From IMG/VR virus record IMGVR_UViG_3300047550_001550, positions 1 to 27,776 of that record: DNA of 27,776 bases, one strand, 5' to 3'. This document shows, piece by piece, positions 2,781 to 10,275 of the stretch. The stretch comes from a virus. Each line of letters starts with the position of its first letter. The stretch's first letter is position 1. The notes below the pieces were generated by a model. It did no database searches, was not told where the DNA came from, and was given only the letters and a program-made list of their open reading frames with translations. Made by a program: the position numbers and the translations under genes.

Positions 2781-3107
2781 ATGAGTTCAGTGCAGCCAAA
2801 TAGAGTCATTGCGGTTCCAGAATCTTCTTATGGAGTGTGTCTTTGGAGGATGCCAGATGGCTCATACTTCGGAGCTGATGGTAAATACCTCTCACTAGAG
2901 GGTGTTATGGGCGATTCCAGAGTAGAGCACAAGATGCGGAAGGCTGCCTACTACTGGATTGGTGAAGAGATTGGCAAACCTGCTTGGATTTCTGGCGCCA
3001 GAAAAGTCACTGACATGGAATATGATGACCAAAATGAGAGATTTCTCGATGGTAAAATTCCCGATGAGTACGACGAGGCTCAGCAGTTAATACGGAGATA
3101 CACATGA
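2781..3107 (+). CDS. Hypothetical phage protein upstream of portal
   Basis: This 108-residue soluble protein has no membrane segment. The N-terminal half contains short strands and turn-rich segments (MPDGSYFGADGKYL), followed by helical segments with GEEIGKPAWISGARKV and an acidic C-terminus ending in QQLIRRYT. I do not recognise the family. It overlaps the portal start by ATGA (3104-3107), so the two are translationally coupled and probably expressed together. Its position just before the portal is where a small terminase-type protein could sit, but no DNA-binding helix-turn-helix is evident and I do not claim that role. Confidence 0.7.
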   Translation: MSSVQPNRVIAVPESSYGVCLWRMPDGSYFGADGKYLSLEGVMGDSRVEHKMRKAAYYWIGEEIGKPAWISGARKVTDMEYDDQNERFLDGKIPDEYDEAQQLIRRYT

Positions 3108-4717
3108 GACATGAGGCTTCATTAGTAGACGAATCGCAGGATACTGTCGTTTTCCTGCCCGAGATCGACATCGATGCGATCCAGCCGCAGTTAGAGAAGG
3201 TTTCTACTGATCCATTTCGTAAGGTTAGTGCTGCCGATCAGTCTAAGAAAACACAGCGTCTGATCAAGCGATTAGTTGGCGTAGAGGGAGCGAAAAGCAA
3301 GTATGAAGATCCACTTTTAATCGACGGATACGGCTTGTTTAATGTTGCTGTGCCGCCTTACGACATTGACGCATTGTCTGTTTTGTATGACGAATGTGGA
3401 TTCCTGCACGCTACTGTCGATGCTCGCGTTATGAATACTGTGGGCCTTGGTTATGACTGGAAGCCGACAAGCAAGGCACAGAAACGAGTTTCACGATCCG
3501 CCACCAACACTGAAAAAGCAGAAAGAGTGCGCCAGATGCACCAAGCTGAGAAGGATCGGCTTGAGCTGCTTTTTGAGAGTTTCAATGAAGAAGAAACTTT
3601 CACAGAGACTATGATTAAAATCTGGACTGATGTGTTGGTAACCGGAAACGGCTATATGGAAATTGGTCGTACAAATGCTGGTAAAATCGGATATGTTGGA
3701 CACATCCCCAGCAAATTAATGCGAGTGCGCAAAGATCGCGATGGATACGTCCAGTTAGCCAACCGCATGGCTATTTTCTTCAGAAACTTTGGGGATACTG
3801 ACATGAAGGACCCGATCAATAATGATCCGGCCCCCAACGAAGTTTTGCACTTTAAGATGTACAGCCCCAACAATACATACTACGGGATTCCACCGTCTGT
3901 ATCGGTAATTTCGGCTATCATTGGGGATAAGTTTGCTAAAGAATACAATATCGATTACTTTGAAAATAAGGCAATTCCTCGTTATGCGATTGTCCTCAAG
4001 GGGGTGAAGCTCAGTGAAGCTTCCAAGCGTGAACTTATTAACTACTTCAAGAAAGAAGTTAAAGGAAGAAATCACGGCACACTCGTGGTCCCTATCCCTG
4101 CTACTATTGGAGCAAATAATGATGCGGACATCCGATTTGAGAAACTTGAGACGGGAGTGCAAGAAGGTTCTTTCGATCAATACCGTAAGTCGAACCGTGA
4201 CGAGATTATCTCAGCCTATCGTGTCCCACCTACCAAAGTAGGGGTGTTTGATAATGCCAACATGGCAGTAGCCAGAGATGCAGATAAGACATTCAAGACT
4301 CAGGTTGTCAGCCCAGATCAAGTTATTGCCGAGAAGAAGATCAATCGCATTGTCACGGAGTTTACCGATCTGTTCCTGTTCTTCTTTGAGCAGCTGGACA
4401 TTATTGATGAAGACCTTCGCTCCAGAATTCATGATAGATACCTGCGTACAGAGGTGCTTACTCCCAACGAGGTACGCGGCGAGATCGGCTTACCATCTAT
4501 TGCCGGTGGAGATGAGGTTTTACCATACCCCACTAGCGTGAAGATGCAGCAGGCGAATGCAAAATCCGACAACGGTGAGGGGAACACAAACGCTATGTTT
4601 GGTACTCCACCCAAGTCCGGACAGGACAATGGTTCTAACGCAACCCCCCGCACAGACGGAACGGGCCAAGAGCGTGGCGAAGCACAAGACACGCAAGGAG
4701 TAAGAGAAAGAGGTTAA
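3104..4717 (+). CDS. Portal protein
   Basis: This 537-residue protein fits the PBSX/HK97-type portal family, the dodecameric ring at the capsid vertex through which DNA is packaged and ejected and onto which the connectors dock. Features seen are a wing region with CGFLHATVDARVMNTVGLGYDW, a core with VTGNGYMEIGR and HIPSKLMRVRKD, NEVLHFKMYSPNNTYYGIPP, and the YRVPPTKVGVF segment near residue 371 followed by a long helix. The last 50 or so residues are Gly/Asn/Asp-rich and probably disordered. GGAG lies 6 bases before the ATG, which overlaps the previous stop. No terminase large subunit precedes it in the window, which is unusual. Confidence 0.9.
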   Translation: MRHEASLVDESQDTVVFLPEIDIDAIQPQLEKVSTDPFRKVSAADQSKKTQRLIKRLVGVEGAKSKYEDPLLIDGYGLFNVAVPPYDIDALSVLYDECGFLHATVDARVMNTVGLGYDWKPTSKAQKRVSRSATNTEKAERVRQMHQAEKDRLELLFESFNEEETFTETMIKIWTDVLVTGNGYMEIGRTNAGKIGYVGHIPSKLMRVRKDRDGYVQLANRMAIFFRNFGDTDMKDPINNDPAPNEVLHFKMYSPNNTYYGIPPSVSVISAIIGDKFAKEYNIDYFENKAIPRYAIVLKGVKLSEASKRELINYFKKEVKGRNHGTLVVPIPATIGANNDADIRFEKLETGVQEGSFDQYRKSNRDEIISAYRVPPTKVGVFDNANMAVARDADKTFKTQVVSPDQVIAEKKINRIVTEFTDLFLFFFEQLDIIDEDLRSRIHDRYLRTEVLTPNEVRGEIGLPSIAGGDEVLPYPTSVKMQQANAKSDNGEGNTNAMFGTPPKSGQDNGSNATPRTDGTGQERGEAQDTQGVRERG

Positions 4718-4964: not shown

Positions 4965-4993
4965 TTGACACATTTAGATATCGGTGATATGAT
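4965..4993 (+). promoter_or_regulatory. Strong consensus promoter before the protease-scaffold gene
   Basis: A perfect TTGACA (4965-4970), a 17-base spacer and TATGAT (4988-4993) begin directly after the TAA stop of the preceding gene. It matches the housekeeping sigma consensus better than any other site in the window. The start of transcription would be near 5000, giving a leader of about 68 bases. It would drive protease-scaffold and capsid expression up to the terminator at 8201. Confidence 0.7.
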
Positions 4994-5018
4994 AATGTGG
5001 ACAACATAGCCGTTGCTA

Positions 5019-5057
5019 TCCCAATCAAATCTGCGTTGCCACACGCCGGTTTTGGGA
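5019..5057 (+). promoter_or_regulatory. Leader hairpin that may hide the protease ribosome site
   Basis: TCCCAA (5019-5024) can pair with TTGGGA (5052-5057), and GCGT (5033-5036) with ACGC (5043-5046) inside that loop. The outer 3' arm contains most of GGGAG (5054-5058), the ribosome site for ATG 5068. The stem is short (6 bp), so its effect is uncertain, but it could hold protease translation low relative to the strongly initiated capsid gene. Confidence 0.3.
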
Positions 5058-5067
5058 GAATATATAT

Positions 5068-7131
5068 ATGTCAGAAGATATTACATTATCAATCCCGTTC
5101 AGCAAGGTAGATACCGCCCGTCGCATTGTGACGGGCTATGCCACTGCTGAAAACATTGATCCCTCAGGTGATTTAATCGAATACTCTGCTTCCGAGCAGG
5201 CGTTCAGAGATTGGGTAGGAAATATCCGAGAAATGCACGCCCCGAAGGCAGTAGGGAAGGCGATTAATTACCGTCCAGTGATGGTCCCATATCAGGGTCG
5301 TGAGTACCGAGGTTTTGAGGTTGACGCCTACATTTCCAAGGGTGCTCAGGACACATGGGAAAAAATTCTGGACGGCACCCTGAAGGGTTTTTCTGTCGGT
5401 GGACGAATCGTTAAAGCTTCGGAAGATATCGACAAATCAAGCAATAGAACAATTCGACGTATCAAACAATATGAATTAAACGAATTAAGTCTTGTTGATA
5501 ATATGGGCAATCCTGCCGCTACCGTCACTATGGTGAAGATGGCTCAGGATGGTTCATTAACATATGATTTAGTAAAGTATAAGGTATTCTATTGCGACCG
5601 CCACGGTATCTCCAGCATCAATAATTCACAGTGTGAGCATGGTGACACCATGCGTGAAATTGGTTCTGTAGATGAGTTAGATGTGGATGTAATCGTAAAG
5701 ATGGTGCAAACAGAAATCGTCAAGGCCGCTGAGGGCTTTGTTCCACCGCAAGGTGCCCGCGCTGAGGCTCGCAAGGGTCTGGAGTGGCGTCGTGAGTTTA
5801 ATCGTGGCGGTACGGCAATCGGTGTAGCACGTGCTCGTGATATTTCCAACGGTAAGGAACTTTCCATAAGCACCATCAATAGAATGGTTAGCTATTTTGC
5901 AAGACACGAAGTTGACAAGAAAGGTCAAGGTTGGTCGCCCGGTGAGGATGGATTTCCATCTGCTGGGCGTATTGCTTGGGCTCTTTGGGGTGGAGACGCC
6001 GGAAGAACTTGGGCTAATTCAATTGCTGACCGCATGAATAAAGTAGATATGTCATCAGAAATTGAGATCCTTCAAATTTTAGAAGGTGACGAAGTAATGG
6101 AGAAGGAAGTGGCTTATGGTCACAAGACTCCTCCGAAGGGGTTCCCTGAAAGTCGTAGTCAGTACGCTGACCCAGATAATTACAAGTACCCTCTTGATAC
6201 TGCTGAGAGAATTATGGCGGCTTTCCGTTATTATAATCAAGCAGGTCAGCAGAGTGCTGGTGGATATGACGATGCTCAGTGGGCTTCAGTTGGTAGACGA
6301 ATTATCGCTGCATTAAATCGTCTTTCGGAAACGGATTACACGATGGAAAGTGGTAAGATTGTTCGTAAAGATATAGGAGGCGACATGGATTTGCAAAAAA
6401 ACATTACAGATGATACAGTTGAGTCTGTGCAGACGCTTTCGGAGAACACAAAGATTGGCTTAATTGCGAAGTTTATTTCGTGGGTTAATGGTGAGTCTGA
6501 TGACGTAACCAAGTCAGTCGATGTTGCCGAAACTGTCACAGCCGAAGCTGTTTCATCTGTTTCGCCTGTAGTCCCCAATGTTAACATCTACATCAACCGC
6601 AATGGAGATGTAGAGAAGGCAGTGGAGACAGATTCTATCGAAGAGGGTCAGGAGATCACCAAGGCTATGGAGTGCCCAGAATGCGGCGCTTCTGTCCCCG
6701 AAGGTGCGGAAGCCTGCCCCGGTTGTGGTTATGAAATGGACGACGACGAGATAGAGGAAGGCTACATGAAGAAGTCTGTTGAGTCAGATGAAACAATCAC
6801 CGATGGTGAAGACAATGGAGGTAATGAAGTGGATCTCGAAAAGCTTATGGAGGGTATTGGTACCCTTCTGGACGAGAAGATCAGCAAGATTAAGGAAGAG
6901 GTAATCGAGACAGTGGATGAGAAGCTGGCCGAGATTACAAAGTCTGTTGACGAGAAGGTAGAGACAGTTTCTGAGCGTGTTGAGACAGTTGAGAACGCTG
7001 GCGCTATCAAGAAGTCGGTAGATGAGGAAGTTGTGGGCGATGAGGAAATCATCGAGAAGAAGGCTCAGTCATTCTGGGGTGGCATCTTCGTACCCGCGGA
7101 AATCGCAGAAGTATTGGGCTACGAGTCCTAA
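5068..7131 (+). CDS. Prohead protease fused to accessory domains and scaffold-like tail
   Basis: At 687 residues this is about three times the length of a simple prohead protease. Residues 1-158 form an S78/XkdF-like protease, with likely catalytic His57 (EMHAPKAVGKA) and Ser109 (LKGFSVGGR). Residues 172-192 contain CDRH and CEH, possibly metal-binding. Residues 222-327 match a phage domain marked by ARKGLEWRREFNRGG, YFARHEVDKKG and PSAGRIAWALWGGDAG. Residues 350-420 resemble DUF6582 (DPDNYKYPLDTAERI). A zinc ribbon uses C536, C539, C550 and C553. Residues 588-645 are an acidic coiled coil. The protein should process the procapsid and supply scaffold. The motif KSV(D/E) occurs four times (482, 569, 625, 649) and may mark self-cleavage. 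GGGAG precedes the ATG. An internal ribosome site lies at 6375. Confidence 0.85.
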   Translation: MSEDITLSIPFSKVDTARRIVTGYATAENIDPSGDLIEYSASEQAFRDWVGNIREMHAPKAVGKAINYRPVMVPYQGREYRGFEVDAYISKGAQDTWEKILDGTLKGFSVGGRIVKASEDIDKSSNRTIRRIKQYELNELSLVDNMGNPAATVTMVKMAQDGSLTYDLVKYKVFYCDRHGISSINNSQCEHGDTMREIGSVDELDVDVIVKMVQTEIVKAAEGFVPPQGARAEARKGLEWRREFNRGGTAIGVARARDISNGKELSISTINRMVSYFARHEVDKKGQGWSPGEDGFPSAGRIAWALWGGDAGRTWANSIADRMNKVDMSSEIEILQILEGDEVMEKEVAYGHKTPPKGFPESRSQYADPDNYKYPLDTAERIMAAFRYYNQAGQQSAGGYDDAQWASVGRRIIAALNRLSETDYTMESGKIVRKDIGGDMDLQKNITDDTVESVQTLSENTKIGLIAKFISWVNGESDDVTKSVDVAETVTAEAVSSVSPVVPNVNIYINRNGDVEKAVETDSIEEGQEITKAMECPECGASVPEGAEACPGCGYEMDDDEIEEGYMKKSVESDETITDGEDNGGNEVDLEKLMEGIGTLLDEKISKIKEEVIETVDEKLAEITKSVDEKVETVSERVETVENAGAIKKSVDEEVVGDEEIIEKKAQSFWGGIFVPAEIAEVLGYES
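6375..6380 (+). promoter_or_regulatory. Internal Shine-Dalgarno site inside the protease gene
   Basis: A perfect AGGAGG lies 4 bases before the in-frame ATG 6385. The same AGGAGG-to-ATG spacing of 4 is used by the independent gene at 10344, so the geometry is functional in this genome. It falls at the junction between the accessory domains and the acidic, low-complexity part of the fusion. Confidence 0.6.
6385..7131 (+). CDS. Putative nested scaffold protein (internal start of protease gene)
   Basis: Starting at Met440 of the fusion, this in-frame product would be 248 residues: an N-terminal helical region, the zinc ribbon (CPEC/CPGC), then the acidic coiled coil and a conserved-looking C-terminal stretch (FWGGIFVPAEIAEVLGYES). 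Small acidic helical proteins of this kind act as internal scaffolds around which capsid protein assembles. Phage lambda makes its scaffold Nu3 from an internal start within protease gene C in the same way (established). The perfect ribosome site supports separate synthesis here (inference). The major capsid protein lacks a long N-terminal delta domain, so a separate scaffold is needed. GGAGG (6817-6821) before in-frame GTG 6829 could give an even shorter form, less convincingly. Confidence 0.55.
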   Translation: MDLQKNITDDTVESVQTLSENTKIGLIAKFISWVNGESDDVTKSVDVAETVTAEAVSSVSPVVPNVNIYINRNGDVEKAVETDSIEEGQEITKAMECPECGASVPEGAEACPGCGYEMDDDEIEEGYMKKSVESDETITDGEDNGGNEVDLEKLMEGIGTLLDEKISKIKEEVIETVDEKLAEITKSVDEKVETVSERVETVENAGAIKKSVDEEVVGDEEIIEKKAQSFWGGIFVPAEIAEVLGYES

Positions 7132-7146
7132 TTAGGAGGAAATAAT

Positions 7147-8175
7147 ATGGGTTCTAGAGAACTTTTAGAAAAGGTTGTTTCTACTACGCAGATTGGTGCC
7201 GGTGGCGGGGGGCTTCTTAACCCTCAGCAGTCAAACCGATTCCTTGACTACTTAGTAGAGCAGTCAGTGCTCCTTAACGATGTTCGTGTTGTGCGAATGA
7301 ACCAGCCAACAGTGGAGATCGATAAGGTTAACGTGGGCACACGTATCATGCGTAAGGCTACTGAGGCTGTTGATGACGGGACGAATGTGGACCCCACATT
7401 CACCAAGATTTCAATGACCACAGTTAAGCTTCGTCTCGACTGGGAACTCTCAACAGAGGGCCTTGAGGACAACATTGAAGGGACAAGTCTTGAAGACCAC
7501 GTTGCTTCGCTTATGGCTCGCCAGACAGCGAACGACCTTGAGGACCTTGCCCTTCACGGTGACACCACATCATCGGACGCGCTTCTGAAGTCGCTTAACG
7601 GCTACATCAAGCGCGCCCGCAACGACGCCACGGTAGTTGATGCCGCTGGTGCGAACCTTACACGTTCACTCTTTGACCGTGCGCTTCGCAACCTGCCCAA
7701 CAAGTACCTCCAGCGTCGTAGCCAGCTTTCATGGTACACATCATCAAGCCTGCTTCAGGACTACATTTGGTCACTGAGCATCGGTAGCGATGCGGGTCTT
7801 GGTGGTACTGGCGCTCCTTCACCCGGTAGCGCTATGGGCGACCTTATTGTGAACGCTGGTACTGGTGCCGGTTCAGGTGGCGGTAGCGCTGTTGTACAGG
7901 GTATTCGTCCCTTCGGTATTACACTGAAGGAAGTTCCGCTTATGACGGAGACGGAGACTGGTACATACTCAGGTGCTGCTGGCAACCACGGTATCGTGGA
8001 GCTTACGTTCCCCGACAACCGTATCTGGGGTATCCAGCGTGACATCGTGGTTTACCGCGAGTTCAAGCCTAAGAAGGACACAATCGAGTACACGCAGTTC
8101 ATCCGAGTTGCGAACCAGATTGAGAACGCTGAGGCTTACGTTCACATGCGCAACGTTAAGGTGCGCAGCCTTTAA
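7147..8175 (+). CDS. Major capsid protein (HK97 fold)
   Basis: This 342-residue protein follows the protease-scaffold, preceded by AGGAGG 7 bases before the ATG. It reads as an HK97-fold capsid protein without a cleavable delta domain. The N-terminal segment has LLNPQQSNRFLDYLVEQS, followed by strands around VRVVRMNQPTVEIDKVNVGTR and an E-loop-like region. LSTEGLEDNI leads into the spine helix with DHVASLMARQTANDLEDLAL, and the C-terminal strands include ITLKEVPLM and IVVYREFKPKKDT. A Gly/Ser-rich loop lies at about 218-247. Codons are strongly biased (CTT for Leu, GGT for Gly, AAC, GAC), as expected for the most abundant virion protein. It is followed by a strong terminator. Confidence 0.9.
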   Translation: MGSRELLEKVVSTTQIGAGGGGLLNPQQSNRFLDYLVEQSVLLNDVRVVRMNQPTVEIDKVNVGTRIMRKATEAVDDGTNVDPTFTKISMTTVKLRLDWELSTEGLEDNIEGTSLEDHVASLMARQTANDLEDLALHGDTTSSDALLKSLNGYIKRARNDATVVDAAGANLTRSLFDRALRNLPNKYLQRRSQLSWYTSSSLLQDYIWSLSIGSDAGLGGTGAPSPGSAMGDLIVNAGTGAGSGGGSAVVQGIRPFGITLKEVPLMTETETGTYSGAAGNHGIVELTFPDNRIWGIQRDIVVYREFKPKKDTIEYTQFIRVANQIENAEAYVHMRNVKVRSL

Positions 8176-8200
8176 TATCATAATATTATTATGGTTAGTG

Positions 8201-8228
8201 GAGAGCGGTTCCTTCGGGAACCGCTTTC
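8201..8228 (+). terminator. UUCG-tetraloop terminator after the capsid gene
   Basis: AGCGGTTCC (8204-8212) and GGAACCGCT (8217-8225) form a perfect 9-bp stem closed by a TTCG loop, extendable to 12 bp with one G-U pair. It ends in a short TTTCT. The stem is very stable but the T-run is weak, so partial read-through is likely; the hairpin may also protect the capsid mRNA 3' end. Confidence 0.75.
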
Positions 8229-8237
8229 TGCTATAAT
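8229..8237 (+). promoter_or_regulatory. Extended -10 promoter directly after the terminator
   Basis: TGCTATAAT (TG 8229-8230, TATAAT 8232-8237) is a perfect extended -10. It overlaps the last bases of the capsid terminator. The -35 position falls inside the terminator stem and is poor (ttcctt). ATG 8247 follows after 9 bases, so the leader would be only 2-3 bases. It allows the fibre block to be expressed independently of the capsid operon. Confidence 0.6.
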
Positions 8238-8246
8238 GGACAAGAT

Positions 8247-8435
8247 ATGAAGATTCTCTTGTATATGGAGAGTGGAATCGGATATTCGACGGCCACTGGA
8301 GTCATCTTCTCCAGAGAGCATCCATATCAGCTGGTGGAAGAGTCGGAAGCCGAGATTCTGCTCAGTTCGGGCCGCTTTAGAACGGCAGAGGCAGAAGAGT
8401 TACGTTCATATTACGACTATAAGATTGCTACTTAA
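8247..8435 (+). CDS. Small hypothetical protein following the capsid gene
   Basis: This 62-residue protein starts with MKILLYMESGIGY, continues through HPYQLVEESEAEILLSSGRF and ends in a helix with an EELRSYYDYK motif. Short proteins with a 'PY-x-L-V-E ... A-x-x-LL-x-x-G-x-F' pattern are common next to capsid genes, but I cannot assign a role. An overlapping frame at 8272 also gives 62 residues but has low-complexity Arg/Ser content and no initiation signals. The frame chosen is supported by the extended -10 box 9 bases upstream of its ATG and by the absence of a Shine-Dalgarno site, matching the other near-leaderless genes here. Confidence 0.65.
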   Translation: MKILLYMESGIGYSTATGVIFSREHPYQLVEESEAEILLSSGRFRTAEAEELRSYYDYKIAT

Positions 8436-8455
8436 ACTAGAGTATGCGAGAATAT
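8425..8455 (+). promoter_or_regulatory. 31-bp conserved element, copy 1
   Basis: TTGCTACTTA (8425-8434), 8 variable bases, TATG, one variable base, then GAGAATAT (8448-8455). The same architecture with identical spacing occurs at 10277-10307. TTGCTA resembles a -35 and GAGAAT lies exactly 17 bases later, the position of a -10, although its sequence is not housekeeping-like. The 5' block overlaps the end of the 8247 gene. It lies 17 bases before the beta-helix fibre gene. Confidence 0.5.
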
Positions 8456-8472
8456 ATTAGAATGGAGAATTA

Positions 8473-10275
8473 ATGACTGCATCCTATCCTAACAGCGCAA
8501 GAAGCTTTAGAAATCCGACGAGTTCCACGACTGCGGTCCAGTCTGATGGAACCGACCTTCACGCTGCAGACCATACTGCGGTAGAAGAAGAAGTTGCTGC
8601 AATCTCTAGCGACCTACGCACTGCCAAAGGTGCATCGGGCAACATGGCTGCCAAGATTACAGCAATGGATGCCTCTATCGCTTCTGCGTATGTTGCGGGC
8701 GGTACAGATGTTGCTATTGCTGATGGCGGAACCGGAGCAAGCACAGCGTCCGGGGCCAGAACCAATCTTGGTCTTGGCGGTGCTGCTGTCTTAAATGTTG
8801 GCACCACGGCTGGCACTGTTGCTGCCGGTGACGACGCACGATTCGGAGCGGCGTCACTGCAAAATACTCGTCCATATGTTCTAGTGGCAGCAAGCGATGC
8901 TACCACTGCGGTTAAAAATGCGGCCGACTATGTTTGCACCGGGACTTCGGTTTCATCAACAGACCATACAACCATTCAGACCGCTATTGACTATGCTGCT
9001 ACTAACGGAATTAATCATATTAAGCTGAGTTCTGGTACATTTTATATTTCTACTTTAAATAGTTTAAATTTGGGTGGAAATGCAGCAGGTACCACTTTTT
9101 ATTCTAATATGAAATTAGAGGGTAGCGGAAGCCCTCATTCATTCTTAACTGCACAGGCTGGCGGTGGAACTAGGTTAGTTTACATGGGATCAGACCCGGG
9201 AACGACTAAGGGATCTATCTTAAAGGTGCAACCCGCTGCCACCAATCCCAACGGCAGCCGTAAATCACGTTTTGTCATATCTGGCATCGCAGTTGATGGT
9301 AAGGGTTTGGGTAACGGTGGCATAGGTGGCATCATGCTTCAGTGGGTTAATGTATGGACTTTATCTGATATTGAAATTACAGGCTGCCGTGGTCATGGCC
9401 TTTATTTAAATGGTGCCGCTGATGGCACGCTCCAAAGGATAAGATTTCAGTCTTGCGGAACAACAAACTATTCTACGACTACGGCGTATCCTCAAGATAG
9501 CGCCTCAGCTGCTGCCGCATTGATGATGTCTTCAGATAATAATACCACTGCAGGTTATGGGGTTGATAATGTTGTTGTACGCGACTGCTGGTGGGAAAAC
9601 GGTATGGCTCGCATGGTTTGGATTACCGCCAATGACCCCAATATAAATTACACAGGAGCACAAAGATTACGTCCCAATATTATTACATTTGATAGATGTA
9701 AATTTGAGGCTCAAGCACTTTCTGGTGGCACATACAATGCTTTATTCTGTGCAGATGCTGTGATTGACTTAACAATTAAAGATTGTTTTTTCTTTATCAA
9801 TCGTGCGGCTACTCAGGCAGATACTGCTACAGAAGTGGCGGCGCAACAGCCAGATGCTTGCATTCGCATTAGATCATCTTATAATGTCAATATTCTGGAT
9901 AATTTATTTGTTACCGGGAATGGCGGGACTATCCCCGGCACCAATAAGGGCATCTTAATCGACCGAGCCAATGGATTGGTCAACTCTAGTGCGCAGACAA
10001 GCCCGGGCTCAGCTATTACTGAGTACCCAGCCGTCTTTGATGGTGTTAATATTTCTAATAACAACTTCGATCCGGGCGGCGTGGCTGGTAAAAAATGGGC
10101 TGCTAAAAGCATTTACTACAATACTGGCGGCAGTACTATTACTAATGTTGTAAGAGAAAATAACTACGAGCGCAATACTGATACTACTTATGTAATAGAA
10201 ACACTTAAGCAAGTAGCTAGCGTAGGCAGTTTGGTAGGCAGAACAACAGCTTCTCCGACCGCTACGAATTCATAA
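8473..10275 (+). CDS. Parallel beta-helix fibre/spike protein
   Basis: This 600-residue virion fibre is probably used for glycan contact or decoration. Residues 1-50 form an attachment-like region (ADHTAVEEEVAAISSDL) like those at the base of phage fibres. Residues 85-124 carry a phage tail-fibre repeat (GGTGASTASGARTNLGLG, then AVLNVGTTAGTVAAGDDARF). From about 155 onward it is a right-handed beta-helix of the pectate-lyase type, with many short strand-turn units such as DIEITGCRGHGLYLNGAADG and IIKFDRCKF-like steps. No catalytic site can be assigned. GGAG lies 5 bases before the ATG. Its place directly after the capsid gene, rather than in the tail-tip module, suggests a head-attached fibre, though a tail spike is also possible. 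Confidence 0.75.
   Translation: MTASYPNSARSFRNPTSSTTAVQSDGTDLHAADHTAVEEEVAAISSDLRTAKGASGNMAAKITAMDASIASAYVAGGTDVAIADGGTGASTASGARTNLGLGGAAVLNVGTTAGTVAAGDDARFGAASLQNTRPYVLVAASDATTAVKNAADYVCTGTSVSSTDHTTIQTAIDYAATNGINHIKLSSGTFYISTLNSLNLGGNAAGTTFYSNMKLEGSGSPHSFLTAQAGGGTRLVYMGSDPGTTKGSILKVQPAATNPNGSRKSRFVISGIAVDGKGLGNGGIGGIMLQWVNVWTLSDIEITGCRGHGLYLNGAADGTLQRIRFQSCGTTNYSTTTAYPQDSASAAAALMMSSDNNTTAGYGVDNVVVRDCWWENGMARMVWITANDPNINYTGAQRLRPNIITFDRCKFEAQALSGGTYNALFCADAVIDLTIKDCFFFINRAATQADTATEVAAQQPDACIRIRSSYNVNILDNLFVTGNGGTIPGTNKGILIDRANGLVNSSAQTSPGSAITEYPAVFDGVNISNNNFDPGGVAGKKWAAKSIYYNTGGSTITNVVRENNYERNTDTTYVIETLKQVASVGSLVGRTTASPTATNS

Follow-up and report, generated by a model that had tools for sequence, protein, structure and literature searches.

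Nested scaffold genes and the gene studied here

In phage lambda, the scaffold gene nu3 is nested in frame within the protease gene C (Shaw and Murialdo 1980, cited in PMC8508860), and gene 27 of the Mu-like phage PaMx73 has a nested scaffold arrangement comparable to that of Mu I/Z (PMC4378225). As for HK97, its scaffold is formed by the N-terminal 102 residues of the capsid protein (PMC8508860, PMC12749128), and P2 gpO combines protease and scaffold in one gene (PMC8508860). The source of the scaffold is unexplained in many phages that have an HK97-type capsid and neither a delta domain nor an annotated scaffold gene.

The stretch analysed here (the window) is 27,776 nt of an IMG/VR virus record. 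We consider it highly probable that its ORF at 5068-7131 is a nested protease/scaffold gene, which yields few fusions and, from internal sites, free scaffolds. The features concerned are the following (groups 1 and 2 are described below).

3104-4717: portal gene
4965-4993, + strand: sigma-70-like promoter of the form TTGACA-N17-TATGAT ahead of the protease gene, its -10 preceded by TG (11/12 consensus matches; a consensus match only)
5068-7131, + strand: full-length protease-scaffold fusion, 687 aa (phrog_9427 head maturation protease, 6e-60; weak ribosome site GGGAG)
5068-5562, + strand: S78 (HK97-type) prohead protease domain, N-terminal 165 aa (PF04586; hhalign to HK97 gp4)
5713-6045, + strand: phrog_2859 domain, aa 216-326 (E 1e-27)
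6157-6312, + strand: DUF6582 module, aa 364-415 (PF20223, E 5e-6, just below cut-off)
6375-6380, + strand: site 1 Shine-Dalgarno (SD) AGGAGG (ATA GGA GGC identical in 9/9 close relatives)
6385-7131, + strand: nested ORF 1 from ATG (Met440), predicted 248-aa long scaffold form (in-frame start kept in all close relatives)
6442-6486, + strand: helix aa 459-473 with an aromatic/hydrophobic face, KIGLIAKFISWVNG region (low-confidence model)
6670-6738, + strand: zinc-ribbon-like motif, aa 535-557 (PF13240, E 2e-5, just below cut-off)
6817-6822, + strand: site 2 SD GGAGGT (kept in group 1; group 2 has it at the corresponding position but in a different reading frame)
6829-7131, + strand: nested ORF 2 from GTG (Val588; ATG in L009, L010 and L011), predicted 100-aa short scaffold form (start aligns with the group 2 ATG)
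6835-6996, + strand: long helix aa 590-643, coiled-coil-like putative scaffold core (AF2 model, modest to low confidence; conserved in the alignment)
7003-7128, + strand: conserved C-terminal motif (AIKKSVD ... SFWGGIF), the most conserved part of the nested proteins and a proposed capsid-binding tail
7134-7139, + strand: AGGAGG of the major capsid gene (SD:anti-SD -10.2 kcal/mol)
7147-8175, + strand: major capsid protein, HK97-type (PF05065, phrog_1623)

Regarding the protease domain, it is assigned to Peptidase S78 of the HK97 type by its PF04586 profile match (22.1 bits, cut-off 21) together with a conserved His and Ser (H57 and S109, invariant in the alignment columns of 27 relatives), and it is homologous to HK97 gp4 (hhalign E 2e-5, aa 15-164). 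The locus thus shares with HK97 a homologous protease domain and the capsid family; in HK97, however, the scaffold lies within the capsid protein, whereas the capsid protein here appears to have no long delta domain, since the PF05065 match begins at aa 20 with profile position 1, leaving ~19 residues ahead of it instead of the ~100 that precede the arm in an HK97-type delta-domain scaffold. This agrees with the preliminary description of the locus; the AF2 model of the capsid protein (pLDDT 32) is too poor for a check of the delta domain. The protease ORF stops 15 nt short of the major capsid gene, and no other scaffold candidate was found among the ORFs of the portal-to-capsid interval.

In comparison with lambda C/Nu3, the putative scaffold likewise occupies the 3' part of the protease gene, has a common C-terminus with it and lies upstream of the capsid gene. 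Lambda C, however, is annotated as an S49 peptidase, and the present gene carries additional domains and as many as two nested starts. Mu I/Z resembles it in having the scaffold start inside the protease gene with a Shine-Dalgarno ahead, but only one nested start is annotated in Mu. P2 gpO is similar in placing protease and scaffold in a single gene and differs in that the scan for internal starts (below) found no strong one in it. BLASTP and hhalign comparisons of the protease and scaffold with lambda C, Nu3, Mu I and Z gave nothing significant, so the gene probably functions like C/Nu3 and I/Z but stands outside those homologous families. The likeness to lambda C/Nu3 noted in the preliminary description is thus retained as a functional one and dropped as one of descent, neither the S78 protease nor the scaffold having any detected similarity to its lambda counterpart.

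Two predicted internal starts follow the protease domain, each with its own ribosome site, as expected of a nested gene of the lambda C/Nu3 or Mu I/Z kind. At site 1, a 4-nt spacer (6381-6384) separates AGGAGG from the in-frame ATG at 6385 (codon 440), and an in-frame TTG at 6391 sits 10 nt after the same AGGAGG. At site 2, GTG 6829 (codon 588) is in frame, and its core-to-start spacing of 7 nt is nearer the usual optimum. The preliminary description had reported both starts and had called the second one weaker; the presence of that sequence is confirmed and its ranking is not, as the two are equally strong by predicted SD:anti-SD pairing (-10.6 kcal/mol for site 2 vs -10.2 for site 1) and site 2 is the more deeply conserved.

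Site 1 was also expected to mark a change from globular domains to a scaffold-like region, which the domain boundaries bear out: the DUF6582 module ends at aa 415, the AF2 model of the fusion is disordered from aa 436 onward, and helix aa 590-643 begins directly after the second internal start. The mean pLDDT of this model is only 51 (~70-79 for aa 379-433); at such modest confidence, it suggests a helical, scaffold-like C-terminus, shared by all forms and encoded next to the capsid gene. A fold search with the full-length model gave no match below E 0.001, and a search of solved structures with the protease and capsid profiles gave none.

The phrog_2859 domain occurs also in head proteins of other phages, with tblastn matches in Roseobacter and Synechococcus phages. 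The protease-capsid fusions of Roseobacter phage CRP-831 and Synechococcus phage S-CBS1 match in this region only and have a different arrangement. The CRP-831 fusion (L085:5094) contains AAGGAG ahead of an in-frame ATG located 438 aa before its C-terminus; a start there could give a capsid protein with a delta-like domain as a nested product.

Conservation of the internal starts and chance expectation

The comparison covered 80 relatives from IMG/VR, which form three groups, and ten regions of cultured phages. A strong internal in-frame ATG or GTG start after the protease domain is present in 66 of the 67 loci having both the protease and the capsid gene (28 of 29 when non-redundant). In the remaining locus (L036), a stop codon interrupts the gene after 234 codons and both sites lie in the following ORF; the contig is metagenomic, and the stop codon could be an error. 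The internal start is also found in the Streptomyces phages Blueeyedbeauty, Faust, Mildred21 and Wofford and the Rhodococcus phages Dorin and Peregrin, and is annotated in none of them. In Brevundimonas phage Polewnik, the part of the gene behind the protease domain contains no strong internal start.

Group 1 (the close relatives, L001-L011) has both sites. Site 1 reads ATA GGA GGC [GAC/AAC/AAT] ATG in 9/9 with varying upstream codons, and the codons that form it are rare (ATA accounts for 12% of the Ile codons, GGA for 19% of the Gly codons) yet kept in all nine. Site 2 of this group is GGA GGT with GTG or ATG. L009 and L011 have no DUF6582 module, and the gap ends just before the ribosome site of site 1. 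In group 2 (most of L012-L053), AGGAGG-N5-ATG stands 117-119 aa from the C-terminus, aligned with Val588. Most members carry another site farther upstream, at a distance of 189-219 aa from the C-terminus (~370 aa where a ferritin-like domain is inserted). A segment resembling the aa 459-473 helix also occurs in group 2 (SLLKRMVNWLVP). A single site, located 171-198 aa before the C-terminus and in most cases reading GAAGGAGGT...GTG, is present in group 3 (L037, L039 and part of L044-L080) and in the Streptomyces and Rhodococcus isolates. In L017, the strong sites have unusual spacing and position. Site 1, for which a comparison of homologues had been proposed as a check, is thus kept in all close relatives and has an equivalent in all the wider ones. 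Judging by the alignment, site 2 is the start held in common with the distant group 2.

It is possible, if doubtful, that only one internal start is used in this phage, either site 2 (GTG 6829) making the scaffold with site 1 minor or unused, or the reverse. The single start of group 3 and the cultured phages and the short 4-nt spacing of site 1 fit such a reading, but every close relative whose sequence extends to the sites retains the two of them, and most of group 2 likewise has two.

Chance was assessed by synonymous-codon shuffles. The window gene has 3 strong in-frame internal starts vs 0.55 expected (P=0.0135; P=0.076 without TTG), which for one genome alone is only suggestive and does not strongly exclude chance. 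For 26 relatives pooled, 42 strong in-frame internal starts were observed vs 8.2 expected, and the two remaining frames contained 4 between them; as the relatives are not independent of one another, these counts are descriptive and carry no P-value. What decides the matter is the comparison among relatives.

Accidents of Gly-Gly linker codons, or pause sites, might also look like Shine-Dalgarno sequences without being starts. The SD does coincide with Gly-Gly codons at site 1 and in groups 1 and 3, and the shuffle background amounts to 0.01 to 1.4 strong starts per gene. In group 2, however, the SD encodes Gln-Glu-Glu in another frame, ATG or GTG is kept at a nearly fixed distance, and the other genes of the window (22 kb) contain 0 strong internal in-frame starts, which makes this explanation very improbable. 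The SD of site 2 is preserved in two reading frames (N-G-G-N-E-V in group 1 vs Q-E-E-x-M in group 2) and its start codon is always ATG or GTG, which argues that selection acts on initiation.

Predicted start strength and transcription

According to the predicted SD:anti-SD pairing, the protease start is the weaker one. Its energy is -7.3 kcal/mol in the window, about -7 kcal/mol in groups 1 and 2, and about 0 in group 3 and the isolates, vs -8 to -13.5 kcal/mol for the internal starts, bar one upstream site of group 2 (L033, -5.8). That site apart, predicted SD pairing favours the internal starts over the start of the protease in 20/20 phages compared.

The same scan was applied to the described systems as a control. 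In Mu gene I, the annotated Z start was ranked first, and no internal site of HK97 gp4 or P2 O was stronger than -6.2 kcal/mol. The presence of an SD does not always predict a start, as lambda C illustrates: the SD of its annotated nu3 start is poor (-2.7), whereas its best internal SD (L091:1843) precedes an ATG that lies downstream of the nu3 start and 131 aa before the C-terminus (CAGGAGGGCGA-ATG).

As for transcription, an internal promoter for the nested ORF was sought and none was found on the + strand from 5000 to 8500. A leaderless protease mRNA is predicted for group 3 and most isolates, in which a -10 box (TTGCCT-N17-TATAAT type) precedes the protease ATG by 6-9 nt. Among the other genes of these loci, 25 of 129 have comparable spacing, so it is not special to the protease gene. 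In L044-L080 of group 3, L081, L082 and L089, the distance from the -10 box to the ATG is 6-8 nt, and a -35 box of the TTGC type is seen 17-18 nt upstream of the -10. In Wofford (L088:3459-3465), the annotated protease start (MNMKIEK) overlaps the predicted -10 box, and a second ATG (3465) fits the relatives better.

Proposed products and their significance

The sites, their nucleotide-level conservation, the predicted start strengths, the domain boundaries and the gene order support two or three products from one frame, and very probably a capsid scaffold made separately and in greater amount than the protease. Regarding initiation, scaffold function, capsid binding and stoichiometry, we infer the following scheme. 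The full-length product, with protease, accessory domains and scaffold tail, would be made sparingly from its weak or leaderless start, and ribosome entry at 6375/6385 and 6817/6829 would give the 248-aa and 100-aa products, which have no protease and would serve in many copies as free internal scaffold. Because the coiled coil and the conserved C-terminus are common to both nested forms and the full-length protein, the scaffold part could co-assemble with the capsid protein and carry a few proteases into each procapsid, where the protease would then digest the scaffold. Protease recruitment and scaffold removal are modelled on established phage assembly (lambda, Mu, HK97). The protease-to-scaffold ratio required is plausible, given that HK97 Prohead 1 contains 415 capsid proteins and about 60 proteases (PMC12749128).

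The nested products might instead be made for another role, such as regulating the protease or being packaged as an internal protein. For a scaffold, the zinc ribbon and the ferritin-like domain of L038 and L046 are unusual; the position directly before the capsid gene, the acidic helical tail, the capsid protein without a delta domain and the lack of another scaffold candidate between the portal and capsid genes, however, render such a role improbable and favour the scaffold.

The two starts can be read, quite tentatively, as a two-tier cassette, in which the short form is the core scaffold and the long form a cargo-loading scaffold whose N-terminal module is exchangeable behind the internal start. 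A ferritin/Dps-like domain (PF00210) lies directly behind the upstream internal start in L046 (4955-6085) and L038 (3169-4278), with E-values of 2e-13 and 2e-14, respectively, and the long nested product of these two is for that reason predicted to be a ferritin-scaffold fusion. If the two-tier reading is true, an iron-binding protein may enter the procapsid of some of these phages as a scaffold component.

A literature search, which covered mainly freely available papers, found no previous account of a nested scaffold for these phages. The present gene is set apart from those of lambda and Mu by its protease, which is of the S78 type, by the two tiers of internal starts and by the exchangeable modules behind the upstream one. 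The whole protease family, including the cultured Streptomyces (Stanwilliamsviridae) and Rhodococcus isolates, would have a scaffold gene that standard annotation misses because it lies in frame inside another gene, and the nested scaffold is directly testable in the cultured phages. This suggests more than one origin of nested protease/scaffold genes, in proteases unrelated to one another, as a means of adjusting the protease-to-scaffold ratio.

A further strong SD with an in-frame start is located before the DUF6582 module in L003 (4969), L004 (5051), L005 (2863) and L006 (751), possibly giving a third nested product, and the window has only a weak equivalent of it. Adjoining the head genes, the window contains a large ORF at 341-2365 that looks ribonucleotide reductase-like by eye.
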